Below, piece by piece: positions 14,161 through 39,259 of a stretch of DNA of 64,000 bases. Origin of the DNA: Oscillospiraceae bacterium (GTDB taxonomy: Bacteria > Bacillota > Clostridia > Oscillospirales > Oscillospiraceae). The stretch's first letter is position 1, and every line of letters begins with the position of its first letter. The translations under genes and the position numbers were made by a program. The notes under the pieces are model-generated. The model worked only from the letters and a program-made list of their open reading frames with translations, was not told where the DNA came from and searched no databases. The stretch covers positions 62,001-126,000 of the forward strand of contig JAFWRM010000001.1 in assembly GCA_017519975.1 (NCBI GenBank), read 5' to 3'.

Positions 14161-14179
14161 ACCCGTACGACAAAACGTC

Positions 14180-17013: not shown

Positions 17014-17957
17014 ATCTTCCCCCTTCCTCCCCGGCGGCGCATGCTGCTCCCGAAGCTCAGTGTTCTGCGCAGAGAGGGGGTAACCAGCACAAAAAGCAGA
17101 TCGGTGATCACGCTGCATATGCTCATGATCAGTGCCACAACGGTAGCACAGCCCAGCAACGTAGTGGTAGCGCGGCTGCTGACGGCACGAACCATGGTCA
17201 TACCCAACCCCGACATGGAAAAAAAGCGTTCCACAACGATTGCCCCACACAACAGCTGTGCACAAATGGTATTAAAGATTGAAAACACGGGAACAAGCGC
17301 ACTTTTCAGCGCATGACGCAGGATCACGCTGCGTCGACTGAGCCCCAGTGAGGTCAAGGCGAGCACGAAAGGCTTCTCCAGCACCTCCGCCATCCCGGCA
17401 CGGGTGACTTTGGCTACGTTAGCCGCCCCGATCACGACAAGAACGGCGAGGGGGATGAGTTCATCTTTGGGATCCTGGGGGATCACATGAAACCAGCGAA
17501 GCCGTACGGCAAACACTATGACCAAAGCAAGTGCCAGGCAGAAGGACGGGATGGCAGAAAAGAATGTGGTGAGAGAAGTGAGGAGACTGTCCTGCCAGCG
17601 GCCACGTCGGCAGGCCGCATAGATGCCCAGCGGCACGCCCAGAAGGTAGGTGACACAGACGCTGATCACGGTGATCCGCACCGTGATGCCGGTTCTGTGG
17701 AGCAGATCCTTCTTCAGGGATAACCCGGACAGATCGTTCAGGCCAAAATCCTGATGCAGGAATACTCGATAACAGTACTTGCCGTACTGCTGCAGAAGGC
17801 TGAGACTGCCTGCCTGTTCTCTGGGGTCATCAGCATATCGGACCATCCGCGCGGTATTGGTGCCCGGCAGAAAAGACATCAGTATGAAAATCAGCAGGAT
17901 CACCGCCATGACTCCGGGGATGATCAACAGTATCCGTTTGCAGAAATAGCCAAGCAT
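17010..17957 (-). CDS. peptide-type ABC transporter permease (DppB-like)
   Basis: A 315-aa permease with an N-terminal membrane anchor (ILLIIPGVMAVILLIFILMSFLPG), a periplasmic loop and about five more membrane segments, with the family sequence VERFFSMSGLGMTMVRA near the C-terminus. The first loop is shorter than in classical DppB. It is the first gene of the BCDF operon and has its own promoter (-10 at 18063). No substrate-binding protein is encoded next to it, so it may use the lipoprotein receptor at 34643 or one elsewhere. Confidence 0.92.
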   Translation of the reverse strand: MLGYFCKRILLIIPGVMAVILLIFILMSFLPGTNTARMVRYADDPREQAGSLSLLQQYGKYCYRVFLHQDFGLNDLSGLSLKKDLLHRTGITVRITVISVCVTYLLGVPLGIYAACRRGRWQDSLLTSLTTFFSAIPSFCLALALVIVFAVRLRWFHVIPQDPKDELIPLAVLVVIGAANVAKVTRAGMAEVLEKPFVLALTSLGLSRRSVILRHALKSALVPVFSIFNTICAQLLCGAIVVERFFSMSGLGMTMVRAVSSRATTTLLGCATVVALIMSICSVITDLLFVLVTPSLRRTLSFGSSMRRRGGRGKI

Positions 17958-18280: not shown

Positions 18281-18883
18281 CTATTGAACTTCCAGCAAGG
18301 AACGCAGTTCCAATTCCATGGCGCGCTTATAATCAAAGTCACCATGCTCGGCGGCATTGCACCAATCGAACGTCACGCCAAGATAGATGCTTCTGATTGC
18401 GCTGACAATGTATTTATACAGCCACTTGTTTCCAAATCTTCCCGTCTTCTGCCCTTTTTTCACTGTTTCATCCAGTATGTTGAAGAAACGGAGCGTATCG
18501 TAGGGCAGAAACGGCTGCAGTCTGTCCTTCAGAGAAACCATCATGAATACCGCCAGAAGGTTCTTTCCGAGAGCCAGGCACCTGTCAGCATAGAGGCACA
18601 TGAACCACCACAGAAACTCCCACTCGTCCTCTTCTTCCTGCTTTTTCTTAATGAGCTCCAAATTGTCCGGGATCAGATCGGAAAACAAGCTTCCCATGAC
18701 CTGAGATTTTGTTTTGAAATAGTAATAAAAAGCACTTCTGGATATGCCCGCTTTTGCACAGATATTGGCTACGGAAACATTGTCATAGCCTTTTTCCCGG
18801 AACAGGTCGAAGGCACACTCACGAATGAATTCCTTAGTGGGCAGTTTTTCGGGGCTTTCTGGCGTTGTTTCTGTTCTTTCCAC
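18281..18883 (-). CDS. TetR/AcrR-family transcriptional regulator
   Basis: A 200-aa regulator. The N-terminal helix-turn-helix is clear (FIRECAFDLFREKGYDNVSVANICAKAGISRSAFYYYFKTKSQ), followed by a helical ligand domain like DUF-type C-terminal TetR regions. A GTG at 18883 is preferred as the start: GGGGAG lies 6 bases upstream, and the ATG at 18943 falls directly behind the predicted -10 and thus ahead of the transcript start. It closes the glycosidase-like/MoaF locus and is the natural candidate for sensing its substrate, though it has its own promoter without the 17-bp word seen upstream of the locus. Confidence 0.9.
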   Translation of the reverse strand: MERTETTPESPEKLPTKEFIRECAFDLFREKGYDNVSVANICAKAGISRSAFYYYFKTKSQVMGSLFSDLIPDNLELIKKKQEEEDEWEFLWWFMCLYADRCLALGKNLLAVFMMVSLKDRLQPFLPYDTLRFFNILDETVKKGQKTGRFGNKWLYKYIVSAIRSIYLGVTFDWCNAAEHGDFDYKRAMELELRSLLEVQ

Positions 18884-18943
18884 ATTGATCTCCCCATTTT
18901 TCGTTCTGCGGGCATGTACAGACGGCCCTAAATCTATGGTCAT

Positions 18944-19004: not shown

Positions 19005-20816
19005 TCACTTTTCTTGATTCTCACAGGCGTCCGGGTTCTGGCCAATAATCCTGTTCACCAGAATGAGGAAGTTGCATGCACTCCAGGTGTTCCATGACCA
19101 GGATCCCGCCGCTGTTGGCCCGTTATCCACATCGTCCGCCGGTTTTCCGGAATACGGATAATAATCATACGGAGCGAGATCAAGAATCAGTCCGACTTTA
19201 TTGATATTATCACAGTATCTGCGAGCGAGAAATTCCGCCGCCTCATATCGGCCGGCAAGATAAAGGCCGGTGCAGATGATCATCTGCTGTGGTGCGGCAA
19301 CACGTCCATGAACGAACGTAGCTTTCGCAAACGAGCAGTATTCCGTCATGACGTTTTCCGAGGCAAGTCCGATCGGCGTGAGATACTGATCCTCTTCCGT
19401 CAGCTTTTCCACGCACTTGTCGATGATATGGGCGGGCAGGCGGTCACCGAGCATAAGCGGCATATAGCATGGCAGGCTCTTTGTTTCCACCTGTTTTCCG
19501 TTGTGCAGCGGCAGGAATCTTTCCCCATTCCAGCACCATGCGATCAGGTTGTCGATCACTTTCCTGCTTCTTGCTTTCCAATCGGCCGCTTTCTCCGGCC
19601 ACCCGCATTTGGCAGCTAAAACGCTCATCATTTCCATGTACAGCGCAAGGAAGGACATCAGGCACGGCGTGATAACAGGAAACCCGTCAACAAACATAGA
19701 GGAGTCGTCCCATCCGGTCTCATTCGGATCGCAGGCGACGATCGTATCGTCTCCCAATCCGGCGTTCCTTCGTATCAGCCAGAAGTTCAGCCATTTTTCA
19801 AACTTGGGGTACATTTTCATGCACTCATCGTAGGTCAGAAAATCCTCTCCGCAGAAGCGAATGAGGCTGGTGAAAGCAAAACCCTGGAACGGAGGCTGAA
19901 GGCCGGGACCTTTCGAGATATGGGAGACCATAGCCGGAAGCCGTCCGTATCTGTCCTGATAGTTGAAGGTTGTGCAGATCTGCTTCCACGCCTCTTTCGG
20001 ATCACCTTCCATAGCCATGGCGTTATAGGACTGCTGCCATGCGAAGGTCGCTATCAACCACTGATAATGCATGAAGATCGCCGGCTGTACAAAGTTATCG
20101 ACCACTTTGGTGCGGTGGCTCCAGATCATCCATTTCGCATAATGGGCCATCTCAGCATATTCAGGCGGGCAGGTTTCCGGATAGTTTCTGCAGAACTTAC
20201 GGAAACTGGCCTTGCTGCGTTTTACCAGGACCTCAAATGGGTCGTATACGTCCGGAAGGGCAATCTCATCTTTGCTCTCATGTATCGCCAGTTCAAAACC
20301 GTCGTTTTCTCCGTGAATAATGAAACTGGCTTTACTGAAGCGGGCGTTTTTACTGTCCCACTCCGTCTCCGCGTCGACGGTACCGGTCAGAGGCTTGAAC
20401 AGAAGATAGCCATGGCGTCCGAAAGAAGCTTCCACACTTCCGTCCTTTCGCTTAAAGGCTCCGTCAAAACTACCGCATCCAATATCTCCGACCGCGGGGG
20501 ATGTTTCGATCTCAAGATCAACGTTTTTTCCCCTCAAGCGCATCTGTTCTTCATCTGTCAGAACGATCTCAACAAACCCGTCCCCACAGTCCATTCGCAG
20601 CACCGCTTCGTCCGCGGTATACGTATATGGGACGTCCGCATTGTTCCTTCTGGGATTGAGATAGAAGAGAAAATCGCTTCTCAGGCACATGGTGGAAGAC
20701 CGTCTGCTGGACAGGCGAAGCCTGTGCGTGAAGAAGTCTTCATACAGATACAACGCGGAGCCGAATCTTCCGAATGGGATACGGATCAACTGATGTTTCT
20801 CATTTGTTCCAAACAC
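19005..20816 (-). CDS. glycosidase-like (alpha/alpha)6-barrel protein, long form L1
   Basis: A 603-aa cytoplasmic protein (no signal peptide) with an N-terminal beta-sandwich-like part (1-190) and a helical barrel (about 210-595) like GH63/mannosylglycerate-hydrolase-type enzymes. The acidic motif is NETGWDDSS (E366, D370), with a second acidic site in GLASENV (E487) and a WQQSYNAMAM helix near 260. It starts with GTG behind AGGAGG. It is closest to L5 at 31090, and like that gene follows a short paralogue in the transcript. Hydrolysis of an alpha-glycoside is likely, but no family member this close is known to me by function. Confidence 0.8.
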   Translation of the reverse strand: MFGTNEKHQLIRIPFGRFGSALYLYEDFFTHRLRLSSRRSSTMCLRSDFLFYLNPRRNNADVPYTYTADEAVLRMDCGDGFVEIVLTDEEQMRLRGKNVDLEIETSPAVGDIGCGSFDGAFKRKDGSVEASFGRHGYLLFKPLTGTVDAETEWDSKNARFSKASFIIHGENDGFELAIHESKDEIALPDVYDPFEVLVKRSKASFRKFCRNYPETCPPEYAEMAHYAKWMIWSHRTKVVDNFVQPAIFMHYQWLIATFAWQQSYNAMAMEGDPKEAWKQICTTFNYQDRYGRLPAMVSHISKGPGLQPPFQGFAFTSLIRFCGEDFLTYDECMKMYPKFEKWLNFWLIRRNAGLGDDTIVACDPNETGWDDSSMFVDGFPVITPCLMSFLALYMEMMSVLAAKCGWPEKAADWKARSRKVIDNLIAWCWNGERFLPLHNGKQVETKSLPCYMPLMLGDRLPAHIIDKCVEKLTEEDQYLTPIGLASENVMTEYCSFAKATFVHGRVAAPQQMIICTGLYLAGRYEAAEFLARRYCDNINKVGLILDLAPYDYYPYSGKPADDVDNGPTAAGSWSWNTWSACNFLILVNRIIGQNPDACENQEK

Positions 20817-20831
20817 AGTTCCACCTCCTCA

Positions 20832-22430
20832 TCATGCTGATAAAACGCTGCCAAGAGAAAGGACGGCTGCACAGGCGGCAGGAGAATAGTTGGCTCCCGG
20901 TTCGATCATATCCGGCTGCTGCCGGAGGGCCGATTTGCCGCTGTTACAGCTTCTCAGGATCTCATCGGCTATTTCTCTGGTCAGTCCGGTGATTCCGGCC
21001 TCATATAATCCTTTCACGATCAGGCAGGTCCGGACAAGATCGGAACGGTCGAAATCCTTGGAGAAGGCTCCGGCAAAATCCTGCGGAAACAGTCCGCCTA
21101 ATACGGCCGGCATTAGGCCAAACTCTCCACACGGGTACTTTTTGCCCGATTCTGAAATGGCCGTAAATCCTCTTCCGTCCCACAGTTCACGGAGGATCTG
21201 CAGTTCCCGTTCTGCCAGCGCCTGCCACCTTTCAGCAGAAACCCCATCCTCCATGATCCGAGCCATCCGACCAAGTGCGGTGAAAAGCAGGCACATGCAG
21301 GCTGTCAGATCAGGAGTAATCACCGGTTCATCGGCGTCGAAACAGGGTGCTTGGATTGAGCCGGATTCTCTGCGGTACGCGTACCGGAATCCTCCATTCC
21401 CGTCGGATCTCTCTCTGATCCACCACTCGGCTCTGCGTACCAGCATGTCGTACGCCCGCTGAAGGATGTCACCCGCAACAGAAGCAGCCCCATCCAGACT
21501 GACAGCATGATAAGCTGCCAGTCCCAGGAGGGGAACGTCGGATACGTAAATATTCCGGCCGGATCTCTGTTCTCCCAGAATTCCGCCATTCGGGAGCAGA
21601 TAAGGCCTCATCAGACAGATTGTCTCCAGAGCAGCTGTCGGATCAGCAAACGCCAGGGCGGCTTCCGCCTGCTCACGTGCCAGATAAGCTATGCCGGATA
21701 CTTTATTGGTACAATACAACTGCACGCCGTCTGTCGTTGGCTGCAGCCCCGACCAGAGGGAATAGGAAAGCGTGAAAAACAATTCCTCATTCCCCGGCGG
21801 CAGATGAATCAGTCTGTCGGAATATACTTCATAATCCTTCTGCGCCTCCGCGGCGCATCCCTCGACGGTTAGTTCCCGGGTGTATTCTTCTTCAGAATGC
21901 GACTGATCAATGATCACGGATTTCAGATCACCGGATTCATCAGGTCTGAGATACAGGTCTGGGTTGGCACTGCCGCGGAGCTTGGGATCCCACGGAGCGA
22001 TCAGTTCCTGCGAGCCCGCCAGCTGGATCACGGTCATTTTCACGCCTTTGATCGGAATCAGGGCGCCGTCGACAGTCATTTTTATGCTGTCACTCAGGAA
22101 GGCTCCTCCCTTTTTTGCGGAGAAATGAACTGTGAGTCCGTGTCCTTCCACAACCATGTAATAACCGTCGATAGCGAAGCGAACAATCCCCTTTTTCCCT
22201 TTAACCGTCAGACAGAAAGGGTCTGCACAGTACTCAAACGGTACCGTTTCTCCATCTTCCATGATTTCTATCTTCAGCACCTCATGCGGATCTCCGCTTC
22301 CGCCGAACATGGAAAGTGATGCGCTGGCTATGGAAATAAACAGCCCTCCATCTTCTCCGGGTTTTTCAAAAATCAGAAATCTGGAGCCCGCACGCGCAAA
22401 AGGCTGCTTTTTTAAATCCAATTCCTTCAT
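20832..22430 (-). CDS. glycosidase-like (alpha/alpha)6-barrel protein, short form S1
   Basis: A 532-aa relative of the long barrel proteins. The barrel helices and the DEPVITPDL segment align with the VSPDL region of the active forms, but the motif E-x-G-x-D-D before it is replaced (RESGSIQAPCF), and the second acidic site S/T-E-N is missing. It may be a non-catalytic partner of L1, encoded 15 bases downstream. Start: ATG at 22430; a TTG nine bases upstream has better spacing from GGGAGGGGG and cannot be excluded. No signal peptide. The gene follows a MoaF-like gene. Confidence 0.75.
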   Translation of the reverse strand: MKELDLKKQPFARAGSRFLIFEKPGEDGGLFISIASASLSMFGGSGDPHEVLKIEIMEDGETVPFEYCADPFCLTVKGKKGIVRFAIDGYYMVVEGHGLTVHFSAKKGGAFLSDSIKMTVDGALIPIKGVKMTVIQLAGSQELIAPWDPKLRGSANPDLYLRPDESGDLKSVIIDQSHSEEEYTRELTVEGCAAEAQKDYEVYSDRLIHLPPGNEELFFTLSYSLWSGLQPTTDGVQLYCTNKVSGIAYLAREQAEAALAFADPTAALETICLMRPYLLPNGGILGEQRSGRNIYVSDVPLLGLAAYHAVSLDGAASVAGDILQRAYDMLVRRAEWWIRERSDGNGGFRYAYRRESGSIQAPCFDADEPVITPDLTACMCLLFTALGRMARIMEDGVSAERWQALAERELQILRELWDGRGFTAISESGKKYPCGEFGLMPAVLGGLFPQDFAGAFSKDFDRSDLVRTCLIVKGLYEAGITGLTREIADEILRSCNSGKSALRQQPDMIEPGANYSPAACAAVLSLGSVLSA

Positions 22431-22557
22431 ATTATGCAAGGTTCCCCCTCCCTTATTTGCTGTAATCCGGCTGATCTGCGGCACATCGCAGCCGGTAAGG
22501 CTTCATATTCCTGGTCCCTGTGTATGGAGCATGAAAAGGGTCAGGAACAATCCCTTT

Positions 22558-23430
22558 TCATGTCGTAAAAGGGTTTGGGGCATCAATGAACTCCTGTTCG
22601 ACCTCCGTGAATTTTCCATATGCTCCAAACATCAGATTCAAAGGCACGTCCCCTTCCGGCAGCGTCATTGCCCCAAATGTCCGCCCGACCTGATACAGTC
22701 GGTCATAATTCTGCAGGAAACACATGGTGTTGCTGCGGTACGGCACCTTGCCCGCTATGATCTTCTCCATGTTCATTTCGGTTATGCTCACCAGATACAT
22801 ATTGGGCTTGATCTTGATGTATACTGCAGGCTCATCCGAGGACGGGAGAGCGCTGACCATGGCGTTCATTTCTTCCGCTTTCTTTCTTTCCTCTTCCGTC
22901 TGAACCCTGTCTCGCGGATAAGTGATCCTGTAGAAACTCGTGGTGTAATAAACGTGTACCGTCGTCATCTTGTTTCCATAGCACCACTGGATCACGGTGC
23001 CGATCATATCCGACGTATGGCTGTGACGTCGGAATTCCAGGGAGCCGTCTTCTTTATAGATCGCCCCGAATTCAAAATATGTGTTGTTGATATACGGGTA
23101 CTTCGGGTTTTCTCCGTTTTTGGCGATGATCCGTGTGACCAGCATGTTTTCAAGGTCAATGACAAACGTGTGGTTCATTCTCTTTTCACAGCCGGAGATC
23201 TCCATGGAAACGAGGAAGGTCGTATCATCTCCCTTCAGGCACTCATACTTCTCCTTTTTGGGTTCTCCGTCTCCGATATTCCACTCAACGTAATGCCCGT
23301 CCAGAAAATTCAGAGTGTGGTCAAACCCGTCATCCATCGCGATCACAAATCTTCTTCCCGCCAGTTCATAGCAGAAAGGAGGTTTGTACTGATCGATCAT
23401 ATAATTGCCTCTTGGATTGTCTTTCAACAT
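22558..23430 (-). CDS. MoaF-like (calycin-type) protein M1
   Basis: A 290-aa protein of the MoaF family, named after a molybdenum-cofactor gene region but of unproven role, predicted to form lipocalin-like beta barrels. Visible family features are CYELAGRRF near the front, YFEFGAI in the middle, and RHSHTSDMIGTVIQWCYG followed by YYTTSFYRITYPR. It is most like M3 at 40290. No other molybdopterin genes are near, so a cofactor role is unlikely here; binding or transforming a small hydrophobic or phenolic compound is a guess. Start at 23430 behind AGGAG. No signal peptide. Confidence 0.78.
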   Translation of the reverse strand: MLKDNPRGNYMIDQYKPPFCYELAGRRFVIAMDDGFDHTLNFLDGHYVEWNIGDGEPKKEKYECLKGDDTTFLVSMEISGCEKRMNHTFVIDLENMLVTRIIAKNGENPKYPYINNTYFEFGAIYKEDGSLEFRRHSHTSDMIGTVIQWCYGNKMTTVHVYYTTSFYRITYPRDRVQTEEERKKAEEMNAMVSALPSSDEPAVYIKIKPNMYLVSITEMNMEKIIAGKVPYRSNTMCFLQNYDRLYQVGRTFGAMTLPEGDVPLNLMFGAYGKFTEVEQEFIDAPNPFTT

Positions 23431-23480
23431 TTTCAGATTCACTCCTGTCTTTACAATCTTTACAGTATATATCTCTGTAC

Positions 23481-25235
23481 TCAACGGGCGATTGTCTCCG
23501 CCAAGGCAAGGAACACAGAGCCCACCCATGACGAAAACGGATATCCTACCGACATTCCTGTTGACTCTGCCGTGATGGTTTGCTTTAAAATGGGTTCAAC
23601 CCTGAATGAATGGATCCCCAGGGCCAGTCCTTTATATAGCAGTGCGTTCAGATATTTTGCACATTCCGCCGCCGCTTCCTTACAATATCCGGCGTCATTC
23701 ATCCCGTTGAGCAGGAAAAACTGTGTAGGTGCTACGGTTGCCCCCCTGGTGAACATGCGCATGACCACTTTCTCGCTCTGCAGGTTCTCCGTGGAAAACC
23801 CGCAGTCGGTACTGAACTGTCCGGGATCTGTCAGGCGGGACACAAGCCTGGCAGCAATTGTATCCGGAAGCCGTTTCCCCAGCATGATCGGCAGAAGCTG
23901 CGTGATGGACCCGCATTTGTACAGCAGTTTTTTCCCGGGAAGATAGGCTTCGAACTGTTCCCCGTCCCAAAGGACGTTGATCATGTAGTCAAGGAGGCGT
24001 TTCCCCTCCTGCTTCCAGTACTCTGCCTCTGAACCGTTTCCCAGCAATCCCGCAAGCCTGGCACATGCTTCACAATTGAATACCATGTAGGAAAGCAGAT
24101 CCGGGGATACGATCGGCAATCCTTCATCAAAAGTTGAAGATTCGTCATATCCCGATTCGTCCGGATGATAGTAAGAAGGATATCCCGTCCCGATATGGTC
24201 ATGGTGTATGAACCACCACTTCGTGTATGCGGACAGTTTGTCGTACATCGAACGGTAATCGTCTTCTGAAAGCTCTGCACACGGAAACCCGTTGAGGATG
24301 TAAAGTACCGCATACCCCTGGATCGGCGGTTTCGTGGTAATGTAAGTCGCCTGGCCGGTATCGCTGATGTGGTCCGGAAGCCCGCCGATCTCGTTCTGGT
24401 AATCGAAGAACGACAGCAGCAGCCTCCAGGCTTCCCCGGCGTTGTTCCTCATGGCCATCGCGTGAAATGCCTGCTGCCAGCCAAACGCCCGGTTCATATA
24501 CAGCTTGTGCATGTAAACGACAGGCGATTTCAGGAAACCGCGTGGTCCCAGATAAGAGTGCCAGACCATGTACTTTGCCTTGTCGGCCATTGCCTCATAG
24601 GCCGCCGGAACCTTCGTGTAGTTTTCGCTGAATTCCTCAAATTCCTTTTCCTTCTGCTTCGCAGCCATATCGAACTCCGCGTAGCTGTCCCAACGGGGGC
24701 AGGTGGAGACATATTCATGTATCGCCATTTCCGCGGGTTCTGCGCCGGGGATGAGCTCCACGTCAAACGGATAGGGGCTGACCGTGAGATAATTCCACTG
24801 CAGATCGGCCTTCATTTCTCCGGAAATACAGACCAGCTTGATCTTTCCGGTTCTGTTGAATCCAAGTTCGATATCTCCGTTCGCCAGTCGGCATCCGCCC
24901 TCATGCATTTTTGGCGTATACCGGATCCTCAGCGTCACTCCCGTTGCTCGGATCCGCATGACCGAGGGATCATGCTCATAGGTAAACTCGACGGTGCCGT
25001 CATCGGCGGTGAATGTCAGTTTGGAAGGAGAACAAGAATACGTGAAATCCACACTCTCCCCATTTTTGAACACATCCAGTTCCATCAGACTCGGTCTTTC
25101 AAGCAATGGCTGAAACCCACGGCAGATGGAGAGATACATTTTCTTGTCGTTCACATCCTGATACACGGAAAGAAACGCACCGTACACACTGAACGGCAGA
25201 CGTTCGAGATTGAATTGTTCATTCGTTCCAAACAT
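23481..25235 (-). CDS. glycosidase-like (alpha/alpha)6-barrel protein, long form L2
   Basis: A 584-aa paralogue of the locus barrel family. It begins MFGTNEQFNLERLPF, the same opening used by L1 and L5, and carries the acidic motif DESGYDESS (E360, D364), the helix AFGWQQAFHAMAM near 250, TKPPIQGYA near 301, and FSTENLQSE as the second acidic site. The start at 25235 has AAGGAG 7 bases upstream and sits right behind the stop of L3. No signal peptide is present, so it acts in the cytoplasm. The sugar substrate is unknown. Confidence 0.8.
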   Translation of the reverse strand: MFGTNEQFNLERLPFSVYGAFLSVYQDVNDKKMYLSICRGFQPLLERPSLMELDVFKNGESVDFTYSCSPSKLTFTADDGTVEFTYEHDPSVMRIRATGVTLRIRYTPKMHEGGCRLANGDIELGFNRTGKIKLVCISGEMKADLQWNYLTVSPYPFDVELIPGAEPAEMAIHEYVSTCPRWDSYAEFDMAAKQKEKEFEEFSENYTKVPAAYEAMADKAKYMVWHSYLGPRGFLKSPVVYMHKLYMNRAFGWQQAFHAMAMRNNAGEAWRLLLSFFDYQNEIGGLPDHISDTGQATYITTKPPIQGYAVLYILNGFPCAELSEDDYRSMYDKLSAYTKWWFIHHDHIGTGYPSYYHPDESGYDESSTFDEGLPIVSPDLLSYMVFNCEACARLAGLLGNGSEAEYWKQEGKRLLDYMINVLWDGEQFEAYLPGKKLLYKCGSITQLLPIMLGKRLPDTIAARLVSRLTDPGQFSTDCGFSTENLQSEKVVMRMFTRGATVAPTQFFLLNGMNDAGYCKEAAAECAKYLNALLYKGLALGIHSFRVEPILKQTITAESTGMSVGYPFSSWVGSVFLALAETIAR

Positions 25236-25236
25236 T

Positions 25237-27030
25237 TTAATTCTCCTTCTCCGCCTCATTCAGGATCTCGCCCAGCACGAAGAAAACCGGCGTGCCCCAG
25301 GATACGAATTTTCCTGTATATTTTACAGCTGCATTGAATACCGCCGGCCCGTTCGATTTTCTGTGAGATACCTGATCCTTTTCAATGATGTCCGTTACCG
25401 GATACCCTCGCTCCAACGACAGTTCACACCAGTTTTTGGCATTTTTCAGTGCCGCTTCCTTCTCTCCTGCTTCGTACAGTCCCACGGTCATAAGCAGCTG
25501 TGAAATCGCCATGCACATCCCCAAGGCAAACGGTCCCGGAGATGAGGAATCGAACAGCGGGCTGTCAAAGCTTTCTGAACGGAATCCATGATCCGTATAG
25601 AACTTGTTCGGATCCATCAGATCCGCGGTCATTTTCCGTATGATCTCCTGCGGAAGCCTCTTTCCCAGAATGATTGGGATGTAGTTGCATATTGACTGTG
25701 AACAGAGTATACGGCCGCTCTTTTCAAGGAGACAGACAAACTGATCTCCGTTCCAGAGCCTGCGGATCATTTTCCGGATCAGTTCTTCGGAACGGGCAAA
25801 ATGCTCTTCAGCCTCATCCTGCAGTCCAAGAATCTTCGCCAGTCTGCCGCACACTTCCATACAGAGGGCAAGATATGCCTGTAGATCCGGGCTGACTACC
25901 GGAACGCCCTCCGCAAAAATGGAGGCATCGTCAAGCCCGCATTCGTCCCCATGCATGTAGCACATGAGGCCGTCCCTGTCCTCATCTCTGAATCTGCACC
26001 ACCAGTCCACCCATCGACAGAGCGGCTCATAGATCCTGGCGCACTGTTCCCCGTCTACAGCATCGTCTCCGAGATGATCCAAAGCCCAGGTGAGGGCGAA
26101 CCCCTGGAACGGAGGCTTGGTCGCTGTAAAGGCGACGTCCCGGTCATTGGCACAGTCCGGAAGCATGCCGTATTCATCCTGCATGGAAAAAAAGCTGTGC
26201 ACGATATCGAATACGAACTGCTGGTTTCTCCAACACGCCATGGCGTGGTCCGACTGCTGCCAGGTCGTACCACGCTGGATAATGCCGCTGCGCATCATGT
26301 ACATGATCGGCTCTTTCAGAACCAGCAGCGGCCTCTGATGGCTGATCCAGAACACATATGCCCCGATCTGACGAACGGTCTCAAATCTTTCCGGAAGGGG
26401 CGGAAGCTGAGATAACCAGTACTCATAGTCTTTGCGGTTTTCGGCAACACAGTCGTCAAACCCGTTCACCTGCTGCCTTGTCACATATTCGTTGCTCCAG
26501 TACACGTACCCCAGAAGGCTGCCGTTTTTCGGCTCCCAACGGATCGTCGTAGGTGCCGCCTGCATCCTCGGGCCGATCCATCTGTTATCATGGGCCTGTA
26601 AACCGGAAACGGTATCGAACAGAAACTGACCCATGCTGGTAAACCCGATCTCCAGAGAGCCGTCCAACCGATCGACGAACATCTCATGCGGTGCGAACTC
26701 AATATGGAAGCAGATGCCGAGTCCGTCGTCTGACCGAATCTGAAGCAGTTCCGGTATGGAATCGTAGCAGATTTCGATGATTCCGTGTTCCGTTTTGATA
26801 GTCAGAAGCCACGGTGAGGCAGAATATGTGAAATCGATTGTTTCACCTTTGTATGTCGGGGCACATGTGATCAGATTATATCTGAATCCCTTGGGGTCGT
26901 CCCGTGTAACGCTGAGATAGATCCTGTCTCCGTTTTTCTGAGCCTCGTCGTCGATTGTAAGATACAGTCGATTATCCTTTTTGGAAAACGCAAGCATTTG
27001 AAGATTAAGATCTTCGATTGACGTATTCAT
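25237..27030 (-). CDS. glycosidase-like (alpha/alpha)6-barrel protein, long form L3
   Basis: A 597-aa member of the locus family with acidic motif GDECGLDDAS (E363, D367), the GTTWQQSDHAMA helix, TKPPFQGFALTW near 304, and FRSESFDSP near the second acidic site (Ser-Glu-Ser instead of Ser/Thr-Glu-Asn). The N-terminal 190 residues are the beta-rich domain. The start at 27030 has GGAGGAGAG upstream; an extended frame to 27123 lacks a site. It is translationally coupled to L2. Confidence 0.8.
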   Translation of the reverse strand: MNTSIEDLNLQMLAFSKKDNRLYLTIDDEAQKNGDRIYLSVTRDDPKGFRYNLITCAPTYKGETIDFTYSASPWLLTIKTEHGIIEICYDSIPELLQIRSDDGLGICFHIEFAPHEMFVDRLDGSLEIGFTSMGQFLFDTVSGLQAHDNRWIGPRMQAAPTTIRWEPKNGSLLGYVYWSNEYVTRQQVNGFDDCVAENRKDYEYWLSQLPPLPERFETVRQIGAYVFWISHQRPLLVLKEPIMYMMRSGIIQRGTTWQQSDHAMACWRNQQFVFDIVHSFFSMQDEYGMLPDCANDRDVAFTATKPPFQGFALTWALDHLGDDAVDGEQCARIYEPLCRWVDWWCRFRDEDRDGLMCYMHGDECGLDDASIFAEGVPVVSPDLQAYLALCMEVCGRLAKILGLQDEAEEHFARSEELIRKMIRRLWNGDQFVCLLEKSGRILCSQSICNYIPIILGKRLPQEIIRKMTADLMDPNKFYTDHGFRSESFDSPLFDSSSPGPFALGMCMAISQLLMTVGLYEAGEKEAALKNAKNWCELSLERGYPVTDIIEKDQVSHRKSNGPAVFNAAVKYTGKFVSWGTPVFFVLGEILNEAEKEN

Positions 27031-27140
27031 TCCACTCTCCTCCAACAGCACTTCGAAGCATGTTTCTTGTCCGTTTTGCCTATTTGCCGCACATGGGGCA
27101 ATACCGCATAAGTACCGCCCCATATGACTGTCAATGATGG

Positions 27141-28916
27141 TTATTCAGTTGAAGCGTACTTTCTGGCAAGGAAGATGAAACATCCCGCCGTCCATCCGGA
27201 ATTGAACAGTTCTCTTTCTCCGCGCAGCGTCATCATCCTGTTGCCGTTCTTCTTTCCTTGAATGGCGTCGATCATATGGAACAGCCCGGCATCGTTGATC
27301 AGGTCTAGGTACTGAAGCGCGATTTTCTTCGCCAGATCCGGCCGACCGCAGTATTCCAATGCCGGAACCAACAGTGCCGGAATCGGTGTCGCGATTCCTC
27401 CGGAGCACCAGCCTTCCGCCCGGAAGAAGGGACTGGTCGTGTCCTCCGTCGCCAAACCAAAAGGCGTCATGAACCCGGGCTCCCGGAAGATGATCTCAAT
27501 GGAGCGGTCAATGATCTCCTGCGGCAGCCGCTTTCCAAGCAGAAGCGCGCAGTAAAGGGGCAAACCAGTGGCCTGTGACCTTTCTCCGGTCACGATATTG
27601 ACAGCCGTCCAGCCATCCTTCGTCCATAGCTTTTCAATGATTTTTTCGACGGTATCTCTGGACCTTTTTTCCCAGTTGGCGCATTCATCGTCCGGTTTTC
27701 CCAGGAGTCTTCCCAACCTCCCGATGGCTTCCTCCTGAAGCGCCAGATAGGCGTTCATATCGGGAGCTGCCTGCGGGAATCCAACGCGGAAATATGTCGC
27801 GTCCTCCCACCCTGTCTCGACGGGGCTCTGGTTTTCGTACAGGCCGTCATGATCCAGGTCACGGTAATTCAGGTGATATTCTGTCCATTTCACAAGTCCG
27901 TCGTACAGGAACTCCAGTTCTTCTCCCGGCATCTGGGTCAGATCGAAATGATCCATCAGATACAGAAGACCGACCCCCTGAACCGGCGGTTTCGTCGGCT
28001 CTCCCCGTCCCAGGTAGGAAAGCGCATCCCCGATTTTGCCGGTACTGTCCTGATCGTCGAAGCAGGAAAGCAGCAGCTGCCACGCCAGGGGCAGATTGTG
28101 GCACAGAAAATAGGAATGCATGGCATGCTGCCAGGAGAATGCCTCGTCAAACAATGCACGCATCATTTTTATCATGGGTCGCTTATAGATGGACGTGCCG
28201 TCCGGTACGACAGAAAGGCCCCACAGCGTCCAGAGCGCTTCCCGCGCCCTTGCTGCGTATTTGGGGATACAGTGAGGATCCAGCGAGGCTTCAAAGGAAT
28301 CATAGTCCTTCTTTACCGCCTTCAGGCTCTCATCATAACTCCAATAGACGTCTCTTTTTTTCGGTTCGACCAGCGATTCTTCGCACACGATCTCAAAACC
28401 GCCTTCGTCATCCGGCATCAGCTCAATGAAGGGTCCGGCTCCGTATCGGATGGTGCCTCGAATCGCCGTGAACAGCATCCAGTAATTGCCGAACTGGATC
28501 TTCCAGGATCCGTCAAGCAGATCGACAGCGCTGCATTTTCCACCCATCCCCATCGGCGGCGTAAGGCGGAGAGCGAGCCCGTCCGTGCTCTTACCCACGG
28601 CGTATCCGGGATCGCCGATGCAGAAGCTTACACTCCCCTTGACGGATCTCAAAGTGATCTCATACGGCGTTGTATCGATCACACATTTCTGGGGCATTCC
28701 GTTATCGATCAGTTCCAGTCCAACCTGCCGGAATTTCACCGGTGACAGCACGGAATTGGCGTTCCTGTCCGTAGGTCTGATTCTTGCCGTACACAGCCAT
28801 AGATGCGCGGAGGAATACTGATTGACTCCCCCGTTGTCGTTTGCGAAAAACAGGTAGGAACCTCGCCTTGAGAATGGCATGTCCAAAGGTTCAACAAAAG
28901 TGTTTGGAACCAGCAT
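27141..28916 (-). CDS. glycosidase-like (alpha/alpha)6-barrel protein, long form L4
   Basis: A 591-aa and more divergent family member: MLVPNTFVEPLDMPFSRRG at the start, WQHAMHSYFL in the first barrel helices, TKPPVQGVGLLY near 308. Its acidic motif is VETGWEDATYF (E367, E371), so the conserved Asp after Gly-x is a Glu here. The second site reads GLATEDTTSPFFRAEGWCSGGIATP, which is nearer to the YWRGP-type loop of characterised GH63-like enzymes. AAAGGAGG precedes the ATG. No signal peptide. Confidence 0.8.
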   Translation of the reverse strand: MLVPNTFVEPLDMPFSRRGSYLFFANDNGGVNQYSSAHLWLCTARIRPTDRNANSVLSPVKFRQVGLELIDNGMPQKCVIDTTPYEITLRSVKGSVSFCIGDPGYAVGKSTDGLALRLTPPMGMGGKCSAVDLLDGSWKIQFGNYWMLFTAIRGTIRYGAGPFIELMPDDEGGFEIVCEESLVEPKKRDVYWSYDESLKAVKKDYDSFEASLDPHCIPKYAARAREALWTLWGLSVVPDGTSIYKRPMIKMMRALFDEAFSWQHAMHSYFLCHNLPLAWQLLLSCFDDQDSTGKIGDALSYLGRGEPTKPPVQGVGLLYLMDHFDLTQMPGEELEFLYDGLVKWTEYHLNYRDLDHDGLYENQSPVETGWEDATYFRVGFPQAAPDMNAYLALQEEAIGRLGRLLGKPDDECANWEKRSRDTVEKIIEKLWTKDGWTAVNIVTGERSQATGLPLYCALLLGKRLPQEIIDRSIEIIFREPGFMTPFGLATEDTTSPFFRAEGWCSGGIATPIPALLVPALEYCGRPDLAKKIALQYLDLINDAGLFHMIDAIQGKKNGNRMMTLRGERELFNSGWTAGCFIFLARKYASTE

Positions 28917-28953
28917 TTTCTTCCTCCTTTTGGAATGTACAGATGTTTCCGGA

Positions 28954-30759
28954 TCAGAAGAGCGGATAGATCCCGCTCATGTCGTACCTGCCCGCGTCTC
29001 TCGCAAGAGCGCCCATCGTATCCAGAACGACAAATTCTCCTGTTGGGACCACGCCGAAAGAGAATCCGCAGTCGTGCATCATCTTCAGATTCATCGCCGC
29101 GCAGCCCATGATCCCTTCCCATTTTTCTTCGACCCAGTTCATGATATACACGTTATCACGAAGCTTTATGTACCAACACGGAGAACTCCATACGAAGCCC
29201 CCCGCCCTGTTTGCCGGAGATCCGGGAGCGCAGTTATTAAAGATCGTCCATGAGTATGAGTGCGGAGAATTATAGATGTGCTGTGACGTCATGAAGTCGG
29301 AATACGTCCACGTGAACGATCTTCCAAGCAGTTCTTTCGTGAACCCATGCCGCGTCATCCTGGGCGGAGTGAGTCCCTCCATGTCGATATAACCGAAATG
29401 ATACGTCGGCGTGACGTCTCTCGTCTCATACTTGCCGCCGATCACGGCGTCGATGCAGGTCGCGCATCCGTTGGCAAAGTCAAGGGCAAGAATAAAGCAT
29501 TTGGGCGGTCTGGAACCCGTTCTGAAATGGCCCAGTATGACCAGGTCGTCGTCCAGCTGGGAAGACCGGTAGATTTCCTTATGCCAGGTCTCTTCACCTT
29601 CCATGCGATATTCAAGATCATGCACGCCTGTAAATGAATACTCTATGGCAAATCCATTGTCGTCTCGGAAAAAGAGTTTCTTCCCGACACACTGAGTGCT
29701 CTCCTTCATGCGGTTGGCGGCCATCATGACGTGGTTTTTGGCAGGGTTGTAGATTGCAGCGTTATCCGCTGCAGCCATGATCTCATCCAGGGTGAGCGCT
29801 TTCGCCATGATGCTTGGACGATACGTACACCGCGCGCCTTTGACCGAATAGTCCATCCTCTTGGTGACGGTCTCCGCGTATTCCCGCCCTTTGTCGTTGA
29901 AATCATAGAAAGTAGCGGTCTGTCCCAGACACCGGCCGTCCGCCCTGTACATGAAATACTCAAATTCATTCTGCTCATCGATTCCCATGGAAACGCCGAT
30001 CTTCCTGGAATTCACCACGTCGATAACGTCAACGACCAGGCGGCCGGAGAACTCCACTTCCCCTCTGGAGTAGATGAAATACTGATCGTCTATCTGAAGA
30101 TTATCGGACGGGAAGGTCAGAACGTCGTCGCCATCCGGCGTGTTTACTTCGACCAGAGTCGAGAAAATGTTTGTCGTATACGTGACGATATGTTCGCGCC
30201 CTCTGTCGTCCTTCCAATCGATCATTCGGTTATCCAGCCGAAGCGTCAGGTGGTCGCGTGTCTCCGGCGGCTCTTCGCCTTCTTTTTCAAGGTAGCCGTA
30301 ATAGAACTGCCTTTGGACTTCACGATTGATATACGGCTTGATGTTATTCGCGTCGAATACCGAATACGTAGGATTTCTCGGGTCAAAGGCGGTCCCTTCG
30401 TAGTCGATAAACCACATTTCCAGCACCGTCACGACGGAGGTCTCCCAATTGATGATCACATTATACCCGTACTTCTTTCCCGGGAGCATATGGGTGAACA
30501 ATGTGATCGGGCCAAGATCCATAGCGCCGTACCGGCACTCTACGGCACTGCCGCCGTTCTCCCTTACAGTCAGCGCGGTATCGGAAATGAATTCGTACTC
30601 CAGCTCCGGGCCGGCCACGGGCTTCTCGTCAAGAACGATCTTCAGTTTCTGACCGTCCAAAGTACCGCTCATCGGCGTGAGGCTCGTCGGAGCCGGACAT
30701 TTGCCTATCCGCTCTTCGACCTGTTCCTTGTTGAGATTGGCATAATCGATCCTAAACAT
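28954..30759 (-). CDS. double-length MoaF-like protein M2
   Basis: A 601-aa protein about twice the size of its relatives. The second half has the full MoaF pattern (TPTYHFGYIDMEG, then RHGFTKELLGRSFTWTYSD and WYIKLRDNVYIMNWVEE), while the first half has a matching but more diverged arrangement (VQRQFYYGYLEKEG, RDHLTLRLDNRMIDW). It is therefore likely a fused tandem of two barrels. Soluble, no signal peptide. AAAGGAGG precedes the ATG. It is the first gene of the transcript that starts near the third copy of the 17-bp word. Function unknown. Confidence 0.75.
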   Translation of the reverse strand: MFRIDYANLNKEQVEERIGKCPAPTSLTPMSGTLDGQKLKIVLDEKPVAGPELEYEFISDTALTVRENGGSAVECRYGAMDLGPITLFTHMLPGKKYGYNVIINWETSVVTVLEMWFIDYEGTAFDPRNPTYSVFDANNIKPYINREVQRQFYYGYLEKEGEEPPETRDHLTLRLDNRMIDWKDDRGREHIVTYTTNIFSTLVEVNTPDGDDVLTFPSDNLQIDDQYFIYSRGEVEFSGRLVVDVIDVVNSRKIGVSMGIDEQNEFEYFMYRADGRCLGQTATFYDFNDKGREYAETVTKRMDYSVKGARCTYRPSIMAKALTLDEIMAAADNAAIYNPAKNHVMMAANRMKESTQCVGKKLFFRDDNGFAIEYSFTGVHDLEYRMEGEETWHKEIYRSSQLDDDLVILGHFRTGSRPPKCFILALDFANGCATCIDAVIGGKYETRDVTPTYHFGYIDMEGLTPPRMTRHGFTKELLGRSFTWTYSDFMTSQHIYNSPHSYSWTIFNNCAPGSPANRAGGFVWSSPCWYIKLRDNVYIMNWVEEKWEGIMGCAAMNLKMMHDCGFSFGVVPTGEFVVLDTMGALARDAGRYDMSGIYPLF

Positions 30760-31089
30760 AGTTCCTCCTTTTCAGTTCGTAGCTTCAACCGTCCTCATCC
30801 GTCGGCCGCTAAGTTCCTGCCCTGGGCGACAGAGCAGGAACCACATCCGGCCACAGTACACCTGTATAGTATTACAGTATCTGTTTGTCCTTCCGTCGAT
30901 AATCTATCCGGCAACCCTCTTCTGGTTTTTGTTGATTGTTACGAACTAGAACAGCGCTTGATTTGTACATCTGTATTGGTTCCTCTAACACTGCGCTCTC
31001 CATCCCACGTTCCGGATTCTCCAACGGATGACTGTTGATCCGGCAGGACTGATCGACGGATCTTCGATGGTTCTGCCCATGCGTTCTGA
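30760..31089 (-). promoter_or_regulatory. intergenic region with promoter-like sequence and the third 17-bp word
   Basis: This 330-base gap has no credible gene. The exact word AGTACACCTGTATAGTA lies at 30855-30871, next to a -10-like TAATAC/TACTAT on the minus strand; the -35 (around GACGGA) is weak. It marks a probable transcription start for M2 and the genes after it. Confidence 0.65.
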
Positions 31090-32880
31090 TCATTTGCCGA
31101 TGATACCCGTCACCATTGTCAGGAAACAGTTGGCGCTCCATGAACTCCATGCCCATCCGTCTGCGGGCTGAGGCGGGATCTGCTGGTCGGCCTTTGCCCC
31201 ATTGTATTTATAATAGTTATACGGAGCGTAACCAAGTATGATGCCCTCTCGGTTCGTATGATCGCAGTATCTGCGTGCGATGATCTCCGCTTCTTTCTGT
31301 TTGCCTGCAGCTTGCAGCCCCACACTCAGGATCATGTTCATAGGCCCGACGACGCGTCCGCAGACAAAGGAGATTCCATAAGTCGCAAGTTCGCTGTTGA
31401 CGTTCTCAGAAGCAAGTCCAATGTCTGTCAGCCATTGATCCTCCTGCGTGAGTTTTTCTGCAATCGTGTCGATAATGTGCTGCGGCAGTCGCTTGCCCAG
31501 TATGATCGGCTGATAGCAGGCCAGGCTCATGGAATCGACAGGTTTTCCCTTGACCTTTGCCACGAATTTTTCTCCGTCCCAGAACTCGTTGACAAGAATA
31601 TCGGTCAGCTTTTCGGCGCGCTTCATCCATTGATCATGGTCACTGAGCCTGCCGGTCTTTCTCGCAAGTACGGCGACCGCTTCCATCAGCAGGATCAGGA
31701 AAGCCATCGAATTCGGTTCGACCGTTGGGAATCCGTCGCGGAAGATCGAAGCGTCATCCCATCCGGACTCGTGCGGACTCAGAAGGGCGATCGTGTCGTC
31801 GCCGCGGCCGGAACCACGGTATCTGACCCAGTATTCGATCCAGGCAGCCATCTTGGGATACATGCGTTCCGCTTCTTCCGGGGTGATGAAGTCATCGCCG
31901 ATATTGCGGAAAATGTAATCCAGTGCAAAACCCTGGAACGCGGGCTGCATTCCGCCCATTGGGAATGTGCTGTAAGTGATCATATTGGGAACACGTCCCG
32001 TAATCTCGTCCTGATACAGGAACATGACACAGATCAGCCGCCATGCTTCCTGTGGATCCGCGAGCATCGGCATTGCGTTATAGCTCTGCTGCCAAGGGGC
32101 TGCGGCACAGGACCACGTGTTCTGAAAAAGAATATGAGAATCCTTGAACGTGCCGATGGCTTTCGTCTTACAGCTCCAGATCAGCCATTCGGCGTATTTT
32201 GCCATCTCCTCATATCCGGGAGCGGGAGCGTTGTATTTCTTTCTGAACTGTTCGAAATCCTGGCGGTTGTTTTCGACCAGTTCATCAAAGTCTTCATAGT
32301 CTCCGAAGGGAAGGATGGCGTCACGGTAATCATGTATTGCCGCTTCAAACGTCTGAGTCAGCGTATCCGGCATGAATTCGATTCGGACGAAAGAATACTC
32401 ATTTCTGTCATAGTCGAACGGAGCCGCTACACTGTAGCTGCCGGCAAGTGCCTTGAAAAACAGCTTGCCGAATTTTCCGAACTCACCTTCCCAGCCGCTT
32501 CCGTCAGCCTTGGCATAGATCCCGCGGCAGGCACGGGCGCCGTTCCCGGATGCGGAACGGAGTTCCAATCGGAGGCCGGCGTTGATCCCCCGGATTCGAA
32601 TATGAGAACGATCGGTGAGCGCGATCTCGACCTCGGCGTCCTTTCCGGCGGAAAGCTTGACCGATCCCGCATCCGCAAAATACGTATACCTGACCGGCGC
32701 GCCGTTGACCGTCAGCAGCAGGTCGAATGCAAAGTCTGTTATATTCAGAGACGTCCCCGTCCAGTTATTGCTCAAACGTAAAATGCCGTGCCTATAATAG
32801 TCTTCGAAAATATACGCATTCGAGGCATTGCGCGCGAACGACGCGCGTACCAGATTGAAACGCTCATAGGTACCAAACAT
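31090..32880 (-). CDS. glycosidase-like (alpha/alpha)6-barrel protein, long form L5
   Basis: A 596-aa protein, the closest paralogue of L1: same MFGT opening, WQQSYNAMPM helix near 263, acidic motif HESGWDDAS (E371, D375) and GLASENVNS for the second site. The ATG follows AAAGGAGG. It is encoded 12 bases after the short paralogue S2, repeating the short-long order seen at 19-22 kb. Cytoplasmic, with no signal peptide. Probably a glycoside hydrolase for the compound imported by the adjacent transporter. Confidence 0.8.
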   Translation of the reverse strand: MFGTYERFNLVRASFARNASNAYIFEDYYRHGILRLSNNWTGTSLNITDFAFDLLLTVNGAPVRYTYFADAGSVKLSAGKDAEVEIALTDRSHIRIRGINAGLRLELRSASGNGARACRGIYAKADGSGWEGEFGKFGKLFFKALAGSYSVAAPFDYDRNEYSFVRIEFMPDTLTQTFEAAIHDYRDAILPFGDYEDFDELVENNRQDFEQFRKKYNAPAPGYEEMAKYAEWLIWSCKTKAIGTFKDSHILFQNTWSCAAAPWQQSYNAMPMLADPQEAWRLICVMFLYQDEITGRVPNMITYSTFPMGGMQPAFQGFALDYIFRNIGDDFITPEEAERMYPKMAAWIEYWVRYRGSGRGDDTIALLSPHESGWDDASIFRDGFPTVEPNSMAFLILLMEAVAVLARKTGRLSDHDQWMKRAEKLTDILVNEFWDGEKFVAKVKGKPVDSMSLACYQPIILGKRLPQHIIDTIAEKLTQEDQWLTDIGLASENVNSELATYGISFVCGRVVGPMNMILSVGLQAAGKQKEAEIIARRYCDHTNREGIILGYAPYNYYKYNGAKADQQIPPQPADGWAWSSWSANCFLTMVTGIIGK

Positions 32881-32892
32881 AGCCGTCCTCCT

Positions 32893-34383
32893 TTACAGAA
32901 CCTTGTGCGCCAGAGCCAGCAGGGACGCGCCATAGAACGGACTCTCTACCATGCCTGAACGAAGCGCTTCCAGCGCTTTCGTAGTAATTGCTATCGCCTT
33001 CTCCCGCTCTCCGGCGTCATATAAGCCGGCAACAACCAGTAACCCCTCTTCATCCCCGACATCATCAACGGGGATCATGCTGATTATATCCGCAGGAAGC
33101 CGGCTGCCCAGGATCAGGGGAACGGCCGACAGCTTTTTATCCGAGTCGGAGAGGTCTCCCGTATACGCGTTCTTCCCGACGAACCCATCGCCGTTCCAAA
33201 GCTCATAAACGAGTCGTTTCAGCAACGCTTCGGCGTGTGCCGCCCATTTCTGTCCCACACCGTCGTCGTATTCCATGTTTGCGAGTTTCCCGAGAACTTC
33301 GCTCACAATGATCAGATAGGCGTTCAGATCCGGAGCAAGTACGGGCTCTCCCACCTTGAAATACTCGGGAGATCTCTCCTGGCCGCTCTCGAACCGGTAG
33401 GCATAGAAGCTCAGTCCGTCTTTGTCAACCGTACGCTCGTTGATCCAGTAGCGGGCCAGTTTCTCCAAGGCCTCATACGCTCTGTAGATCTCCCCGCGCG
33501 AATCGTTGAGCAGCCCCTCGTCGATAAGGCGTTTGACGGCAACGCCTATGATCGGCTCTGCCGGACAAGAAAGGATCATGTCCAGTGCCTTTACCGGATC
33601 CTTGAACGCCATAGACGCGATCGACATCAGTCTTGCGTTGGCTACCGTGGAATTGTATTTGCTCTTTACGATGACCTTCCTGCCATCTTCAAACGTTCTG
33701 TGTCCCAGCCATAGCGGATAAGCGATCTTCTCCTTTACGTCGTTCCACTCCTCCGGAACGTCAACCAGGGAATCGACGAACGCCTTGAATTCCGCCTCGT
33801 TCTCCGCGGCGCATTCCTCGAGCGTCTTTGTGATCTCAGGTATGGGCGTGTCACTGGGCAGATCATATACGTAAAGCTCGATCTGTCCGTCTTCAGGGGT
33901 GACTTCGTACACCGGCGTAACGGAATGGAATTTGGCCCGTTCCCAGGTATCGTCAAAAGTGTACGTCCCTTGTTTTGCTACAATAAAATACGTAACCGCA
34001 CCGATGCTGATCTTTACCCCTTCTTCCGCATTCAGCGTGGTCGCGAAAGAAGCCGTCTCCACTCCGTTCAGCCGAAGAGAAGCGTTTCCGGTAATACGTA
34101 TGGCCTGTGTCTGACTGTCTATGGCCAGCTTGTATTTCGCTCCGTTTTTCGTCGAAACTTCCAAAAGCGCTTCCGTCGCCGTGTAGTCATACGGCACGAG
34201 CTCTCCGTTTTCCAGCGGTTCGAAACGAAGCGACCCAGGCAATCTGCTCATTCCCATTGTCAGGAATCCGCCGACTGCTACCGGCATCATCGCAAGCCAC
34301 AGTTCCCCCTCGTGGTCGATGATGATATGTCTGCATTCCTTATGACCAAATCCATACAACGGCATTGTTGATTTTATATCCAC
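32893..34383 (-). CDS. glycosidase-like (alpha/alpha)6-barrel protein, short form S2
   Basis: A 496-aa relative of S1 with the same losses: the acidic motif reads FESGQERSPEYF, lacking the Asp of E-x-G-x-D, and no S/T-E-N site is present. The segment VGEPVLAPDLNAYL matches the V-S-P-D-L part of active forms. A GTG start at 34383, 8 bases behind AAAGGAG, is preferred over the ATG at 34365. It follows the transporter receptor gene and precedes L5. It is possibly a structural or regulatory partner of L5. Confidence 0.72.
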   Translation of the reverse strand: MDIKSTMPLYGFGHKECRHIIIDHEGELWLAMMPVAVGGFLTMGMSRLPGSLRFEPLENGELVPYDYTATEALLEVSTKNGAKYKLAIDSQTQAIRITGNASLRLNGVETASFATTLNAEEGVKISIGAVTYFIVAKQGTYTFDDTWERAKFHSVTPVYEVTPEDGQIELYVYDLPSDTPIPEITKTLEECAAENEAEFKAFVDSLVDVPEEWNDVKEKIAYPLWLGHRTFEDGRKVIVKSKYNSTVANARLMSIASMAFKDPVKALDMILSCPAEPIIGVAVKRLIDEGLLNDSRGEIYRAYEALEKLARYWINERTVDKDGLSFYAYRFESGQERSPEYFKVGEPVLAPDLNAYLIIVSEVLGKLANMEYDDGVGQKWAAHAEALLKRLVYELWNGDGFVGKNAYTGDLSDSDKKLSAVPLILGSRLPADIISMIPVDDVGDEEGLLVVAGLYDAGEREKAIAITTKALEALRSGMVESPFYGASLLALAHKVL

Positions 34384-34642
34384 CTGGTGTGCTCCTTTCA
34401 AAGAGATCGCGCAGTTTGAGAATCCGGCAAAAAGCCTTATGATCACTTCCGGCAGTCATGGAGCATACTCCGTTTCCCACGTTGGCAGAACCTGCGTCTG
34501 TCGATGTGCCGATAAGGACGATCTGCTCAACGCTGCCCTGGTTCTCAAACTGCAACACACGTCATTATGTTTACTCCACTGGCCGTTGGGCCAGTGGAGT
34601 AAATATATCCGCTCAGTTTCTTCTTTTCACTTGCCGAATGGC
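34384..34642 (-). other. spacer between receptor gene and short barrel gene
   Basis: About 260 bases without a supported gene. It holds the strong hairpin at 34570-34603. A 72-codon frame with a GTG start at 34558 has no ribosome site and no recognisable product. Confidence 0.5.
34570..34603. repeat. 15-bp perfect hairpin downstream of the receptor gene
   Basis: TTTACTCCACTGGCC pairs fully with GGCCAGTGGAGTAAA around a 4-nt loop. No T-run follows on the minus strand, so it is more likely an RNA-stabilising or attenuating hairpin than a full terminator. Such hairpins after a binding-protein gene raise receptor mRNA over downstream mRNA in other transport operons. Confidence 0.75.
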
Positions 34643-36428: not shown

Positions 36429-37400
<972 letters not shown>

Positions 37401-37403
37401 GGC

Positions 37404-38375: not shown

Positions 38376-38387
38376 AGCAGATCCCCC

Positions 38388-39257: not shown

Positions 39258-39259
39258 GA

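Follow-up and report, generated by a model that had tools for sequence, protein, structure and literature searches.

A stretch of 64,000 nucleotides from an Oscillospiraceae bacterium (contig JAFWRM010000001.1, positions 62,001–126,000; hereafter the window) carries, twice on its minus strand, a MoaF-like gene followed by a short and then a long gene encoding a barrel protein related to glycoside hydrolase family 63 (GH63), and the question that this locus raises is whether a three-gene module has been duplicated or whether its parts have histories of their own. In the first set M1 (22558..23529), S1 (20832..22484) and L1 (19005..20816) are contiguous, S1 lying 15 bp upstream of L1. In the second, M3 (40290..41204) is separated from S2 (32893..34446), itself 12 bp upstream of L5 (31090..32880), by the OppB, OppC, OppD and OppF genes of a transporter named here Opp1 (36429..40249) and by a family 5 solute-binding lipoprotein gene, SBP5 (34643..36313). 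An earlier note, which located these genes correctly, read them as a duplicated module of which one copy holds or lost the transporter; within the window the presumed counterparts are indeed reciprocal best hits (44% for L1/L5, 49% for M1/M3 and 27% for S1/S2). The real feature is an ancient and mobile pair made of a short, decayed GH63-like barrel protein (A) and a long one (B); the active site has been remodelled in B and has decayed in A. The duplicated module is an appearance confined to one window.

Once relatives are added to the trees, none of L1/L5, S1/S2 and M1/M3 forms a sister pair, and approximately unbiased (AU) tests, for which 19 of the 56 pairs and 20 of the 29 single MoaF proteins were chosen by hand so as to span the clades, reject the forced groupings L1+L5 (p=4e-6), S1+S2 (7e-124) and M1+M3 (1e-38). 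A recent duplication of the whole module therefore fails by the standard that the earlier note had itself set, sister grouping of all three gene types. In the B and A trees, which cover 56 pairs, a matching clade of 11 members with 100% support takes in L5 and S2, respectively, and L1 and S1 form long single branches of an isolated old lineage. L5 shares 76% and 69% identity with proteins of genomes G006 and G066, both from other genera, and the relatives of S2 that adjoin these proteins are 61% and 56% identical to it. As judged from the agreement of the A and B trees, both window pairs descend from one old pair. The marks by which the copies had been matched are also more widespread than was thought: L2 opens with MFGT too, the W-Q-Q of WQQSYNAM is invariant across all 51 long B proteins, the losses common to S1 and S2 run through A proteins generally, and the DDTT and FVIDLE patches of M1 and M3 both occur in a MoaF protein encoded on another contig of the same genome (L129). 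Furthermore, L3 (25237..27123) and L2 (23481..25259) constitute a third, overlooked pair of the same kind, and a double MoaF gene, M2 (28954..30759), also precedes a pair, so that the order of a MoaF gene upstream of a short–long pair comes nearly free in an island whose genes share one strand.

That a MoaF–short–long module, with or without its transporter, was duplicated in this lineage to give M1-S1-L1 and M3-S2-L5 is consistent with the reciprocal best hits and with the recurrence of the order OppBCDF-SBP5-S2-L5 at another locus (L150); set against the AU tests, the relatives of M1 and M3 found elsewhere and the scarcity of MoaF-like genes near other pairs (see below), it is hardly credible. 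The idea that short and long barrels duplicate jointly survives in another form, as an ancient and recurrent pair with mirrored trees, and falls for the two window pairs, which are not sisters. The original observation as a whole is thus confirmed in part, and its interpretation partly supported.

Scanned with a B profile, 84,980 species genomes yielded 56 loci, all with Clostridia-type record titles (57 of 61 pattern matches encode relatives). Of the 56 B genes, 51 are immediately preceded by an A gene on the same strand, no more than 200 bp away and with a median gap, by assigned starts, of 6 bp; among the five others, one has its A gene 364 bp upstream (L199), three start at contig ends (L188, L189 and L193) and one is alone (L169). 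In 149 genomes near this one, matches to L5 (E up to 1e-20) and to S2 (E up to 1e-6) are each present in 17. The A and B trees, built from 49 of the 51 adjacent scan pairs (two with truncated members were dropped) together with seven pairs from the window and further genomes, have 35 of 53 splits in common (label shuffles: mean 0.16, maximum 3), and their distances are strongly correlated (Mantel r 0.84; 0 of 9,999 permutations as high). The place of S1 is the only conflict between well-supported splits. A proteins evolve faster, with longer branches and a median distance ratio of 1.75, and the A and B profiles can be aligned over 500 columns. The short and long barrel genes are one ancient two-gene unit, ordered A then B, whose members diversify together. 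The third pair of the window belongs here as well: L2, which probably starts at 25235 (MFGTNEQF), groups in the B tree with a protein of another genome (G010:C70), L3 is a less decayed member of the A tree, and relatives of the pair are present in G010 and G042.

A and B are GH63-like homologues. The cut-off of PF22422 (MGH1-like_GH, 27 bits) is passed by L1 (57 bits), L2 (88.1), L3 (90.2), L4 (86.4; see below), L5 (63.6) and S2 (40.1), with S1 exactly at the line (27). The predicted structure of L5 (predicted local distance difference test, pLDDT, 91.8) shows a β domain followed by a barrel, and its nearest solved structure is the GH63 mannosylglycerate hydrolase (MGH) 4wva (Z 37.4, 2.6 Å over 334 residues); Escherichia coli YgjK (3w7s) aligns over 552 residues (Z 36.5). 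The S2 model (pLDDT 85.3) is an eroded version of the L5 fold and matches 2z07 (Z 21.1 over 269 residues). Both models are thus predicted (α/α)6 barrels of the MGH/YgjK type. When L5 and M3 were compared as single sequences with solved structures, nothing useful emerged, profiles being needed, and NCBIfam assigned no family to those barrels and MoaF proteins that were submitted to it. No signal peptide is evident, by eye and with no program, in any barrel or MoaF protein.

A tree of 71 of 73 barrel proteins, short pieces being left out, supplied the classes for one residue table of all 71, and a motif listing covers 55 of them. In the hydrolase MhGgH, Asp182 is reported as acid, Glu419 as base and Asp43 as sugar-binding residue, the alanine mutants of all three being inactive (PMC6608630). 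Canonical relatives belonging to the same family or order retain all three acids, in four of four cases. In the 51 main B proteins, Trp42 is invariant, Asp43 is replaced by Gln throughout (Q264 in L5) and the general acid Asp182 is retained in 50, with one gap (D375 in L5). Glu is found at position 419 in none of the 51, where Tyr (33), Thr (6), one Asp, two gaps and other residues occur. The Pro after the YWRG motif (P379) has become Arg or Lys in 50 of 51, again with one gap (R509 in L5), and an Asp specific to B proteins (D574 in L5) is present in 48, with two gaps. Five L2-type B proteins are less regular, with Gln or His for Asp43, Asp182 in four and the Arg in two. The unpaired L4 (27141..28916) and 11 relatives form a separate class with Gln, Glu and His at the positions of Asp43, Asp182 and Glu419 in all 12 members, a further remodelled active site.

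Two readings of this site other than a hydrolase with a modified base have to be considered. B could be an inverting glycoside phosphorylase derived from a GH63-like hydrolase, the acid being kept, the base lost and the Arg or Lys near subsite -1 holding phosphate; the near-invariance of the acid and of the gained basic residue and the lack of a base Glu all fit, and (α/α)6-barrel phosphorylases of families GH65 and GH94 work with the acid alone. Yet D574 could be a relocated base, the Arg could bind a uronate instead and the neighbouring genes examined include no sugar-1-phosphate enzyme, so that we consider this quite unlikely. Alternatively B, too, may have ceased to be an enzyme, the pair acting as a sugar-binding sensor or carrier: B has after all lost two of the three canonical acids. 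We hold this to be very unlikely, given that conservation across 51 diverse B proteins reaches at least 94% in 75 columns, the acid included, a pattern more in keeping with a working site. For a catalytic B, a relocated base may exist even though Glu419 is gone.

A proteins have taken a different course. None of 51 has all three acids together, Asp at the position of Asp182 remains in only 12, no Glu is present at position 419, 45 have a gap in place of the GLxxE segment and the Trp walls are lost; the fold and an ESG motif are kept. It could be argued that A and B each work alone, on two different steps or substrates of a single pathway, and are adjacent for co-regulation only, as touching operon genes often encode separate enzymes and A retains its fold and the ESG motif. 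An acid-less free enzyme lacking Trp walls and GLxxE is nevertheless hard to picture, and both gene order and adjacency hold through many pair types; this alternative is therefore possible but unlikely. The residue patterns suggest that the pair probably joins an active sugar enzyme to an inactive twin.

MoaF genes follow the barrels more loosely. M1 (PF10703, 40.4 bits) is sister to copies in the congener G001 (contig C10) and elsewhere in this genome (contig C20), with support of 99/98, and M3 (52.5 bits) to a gene of G010 (contig C79; 100/97), which contradicts their proposed place in a module. M1 probably starts at 23430 (MLKDNPRG, as in its homologue L129), in which case it does not overlap L2. 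MoaF-like genes lie near the pairs at only four of the 56 loci (L152, L157, L158 and L171), those of L157 and L158 not being the sister of M3, and a MoaF gene as a fixed part of the pair unit was rejected on this ground and on that of the sisters elsewhere. No relative turned up when contigs were scanned with M3. MoaF and barrel genes co-occur in 13 of 149 genomes, three and four genomes having one alone (Fisher p=7e-13), and, without the genus of the window, in nine, again with three and four (p=3e-9), in tests where closely related genomes are not independent and the barrel set, defined by E up to 1e-20 against L5, takes in L4-type matches too. MoaF genes go with the system at the genome level, not as a fixed part of the unit. 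M1, M2 and M3 all pass the PF10703 cut-off (23.3), M1 and M3 score below that of MoaF_C, and a MoaF profile matches 4q51 weakly. M2, of 601 residues (PF10703, 54.4 bits; PF17409, 38.8 bits), is a tandem whose halves fall in two clades. Next to M3 stands X260 (41341..42123), a short and divergent MoaF-like gene with 25% identity to M3 (8e-8) and no Pfam match. Such long (about 290 residues) and short divergent (about 230–260 residues) neighbours occur in the window (40290–42123) and at G010:C79, G000:C53, G003:C17, G004:C118, G042:C30, G075:C19, G088:C41 and L152, a second homologous pairing in the same system.

The transporter likewise has relationships of its own. Opp1 comprises OppF (36429–37400), OppD (37404–38375), OppC (38388–39257) and OppB (39260–40249). 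Its permeases B and C share 66–86% identity with those beside other pair types in the congeners G001, G003 and G004, but only 57–66% with those beside the S2-L5 pair of L150; the ATPases D and F show the same trend with less contrast (79–88% versus 74–76%). In G001, DNA matching the window on both sides of the island is split over two contigs (C35 and C41): window positions 7954–14205 match in pieces of 74–94% identity, mostly 86–94% with one 0.5-kb piece at 74%, and positions 43975–61789 match at 86% over 17.9 kb. Between these flanks, only OppBCDF can be aligned with G001 over several kilobases (74% over 3.8 kb), and the G001 island holds three pairs of types absent from the window. A URO-D protein at the right island edge is 93% identical in G001. 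The split across contigs means that a single exchange site is deduced from its two flanks. Since orthologous flanks and the same Opp transporter accompany other pair types in the congener, the comparison points to pairs exchanged as cassettes around a retained transporter, at an apparent exchange hotspot. Loss of the transporter from one module copy was rejected on the same two comparisons, of Opp1 and of the G001 island. Judged by these sequence relationships, both MoaF and the Opp transporter have histories separate from that of the pair. A second dipeptide-type ABC transporter, Opp2 (14242..17957; F, D, C and B), was rejected as a duplicate of Opp1 (29–49% identity). It adjoins TetR and L1, and its best matches among the loci examined reach only 36–56%, in a genome that holds many OppD-like ATPases.

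The island as a whole is transcribed from the minus strand in the order X260, M3, OppB, OppC, OppD, OppF, SBP5 (PF00496, 218.6 bits, with a start of lipoprotein type), S2, L5, M2, L4, L3, L2, M1, S1, L1, a TetR-type regulator at its edge (18281..18943; PF00440, 50.4 bits) and the second Opp set. Its guanine-plus-cytosine content is 0.49–0.56 across 18–44 kb of the window and mostly 0.57–0.62 outside; URO-D-like, DUF169 and arylamine N-acetyltransferase genes mark the other edge (43963–46688). Homologous neighbour clusters at the 56 loci comprise Opp ATPases of mixed types (23 loci), cupin (11), URO-D-like (11), SBP5 (8), OppC (8), flavin oxidoreductase (5), SDR (5) and MatE (4) proteins, and molybdenum hydroxylase genes are present in L146 and L162. 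Record titles name sheep and buffalo rumen, roe deer colon, sheep duodenum and horse faeces, and these hosts, together with sample codes that we take to denote termite gut and digester, suggest plant-derived substrates.

Taken together, these data lead us to favour a heteromeric enzyme, an account that we consider rather probable as a whole and in which the complex, its substrate and its chemistry are inferred. A and B, made from touching reading frames, would form one cytosolic complex, B as catalytic and A as pseudoenzyme chain. A small glycoside imported by Opp and SBP5 would be cleaved there by B, using its acid Asp (D375 in L5) and the two kept Trp of the sugar site, either by hydrolysis, with the conserved Asp of the B-only loop (D574) as relocated base, or by phosphorolysis, with the gained Arg or Lys (R509) holding another nucleophile such as phosphate. 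MoaF and the recurrent URO-D-like, cupin, flavin and molybdenum enzymes might then act on the released aglycone or sugar, and different units may serve different substrates.

Several points weigh against this account. Linkage gives genes a common tree whether or not their products ever meet, and mirrored trees alone indicate co-inheritance only; the weight therefore rests on adjacency, kept through many pair types and changing neighbours. Even so, adjacency at 51 of 56 loci would bear on a complex only indirectly. One locus, L169, holds a B-type barrel (5345–7183) with no A-type reading frame, and another, L200, an L3-type gene without a B match. The alignment near Glu419 is loose, with Leu there in one alignment and mostly Tyr in another, and the candidate roles of D574 as base and R509 as anion site are assigned from conservation, not from a ligand-bound structure. 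The proposed pathway is uncertain because cupin and URO-D genes are each found at only 11 of the 56 loci. The lone B gene of L169 is possibly informative on whether B can act alone.

If the heteromeric account is right, these proteins might constitute a new family of carbohydrate-active enzymes made of a pair of homologous GH63-like barrels, one a catalytic chain whose site has been re-made (relocated base or phosphorylase) and the other a decayed partner; in gut Oscillospiraceae their two-gene cassettes would be interchangeable and would occupy a fixed chromosomal site together with a transporter that is retained. We advance this proposal only tentatively. To our knowledge, few glycosidases require an inactive homologue of themselves, and a pair that has kept and diversified both halves therefore offers a natural system in which to study how a pseudoenzyme turns into an obligate partner. 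With its constant transporter and exchanged pairs, the island provides a direct route to linking pair type to substrate. With their catalytic residues changed, naming these genes GH63 hydrolases by similarity is probably wrong, which would matter for counts of carbohydrate-active enzymes in herbivore-gut metagenomes. In open PMC papers we found no description of such a pair: among titles on MGH/GH63 and on GH63 phosphorylases none concerns it, and no paper was found for PF22422, MGH1-like, IPR054491 or Alloscillospira; searches there for pseudoenzyme glycosidase heterodimers and for six-hairpin heterodimers gave one heparanase paper and one unrelated paper, respectively. Matches to MoaF were mostly unrelated acronyms, with nothing relevant on MoaF, lipocalin and operon among the matches listed.

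Among known systems, M1, M2 and M3 resemble MoaF (PF10703) and calycin-like proteins, M1 and M3 without reaching the MoaF_C level noted above. GH37 trehalases share the barrel fold (E. coli 2jjb, Z 34.2), and the Trehalase model scores only weakly here. The heparanases HPSE1 and HPSE2 have another fold, are eukaryotic and are not known to be encoded by an adjacent gene pair. They resemble A and B in that an active glycosidase is accompanied by an inactive homologue that appears to counteract it. YgjK, a GH63 glucosidase, has a two-domain layout that aligns end to end with L5, but it is a single chain with 17% sequence identity and other active-site residues. A further comparison is with the GH63 enzymes TthMGH (4wva, Z 37.4) and MhGgH (5ont, Z 35.1), which have in common with B the barrel, PF22422, the acid Asp182 and residues Trp42 and Trp436; B differs from them in having lost Glu419, Asp43 and Trp376, and in possessing an extra N-terminal β domain and a decayed homologous partner.

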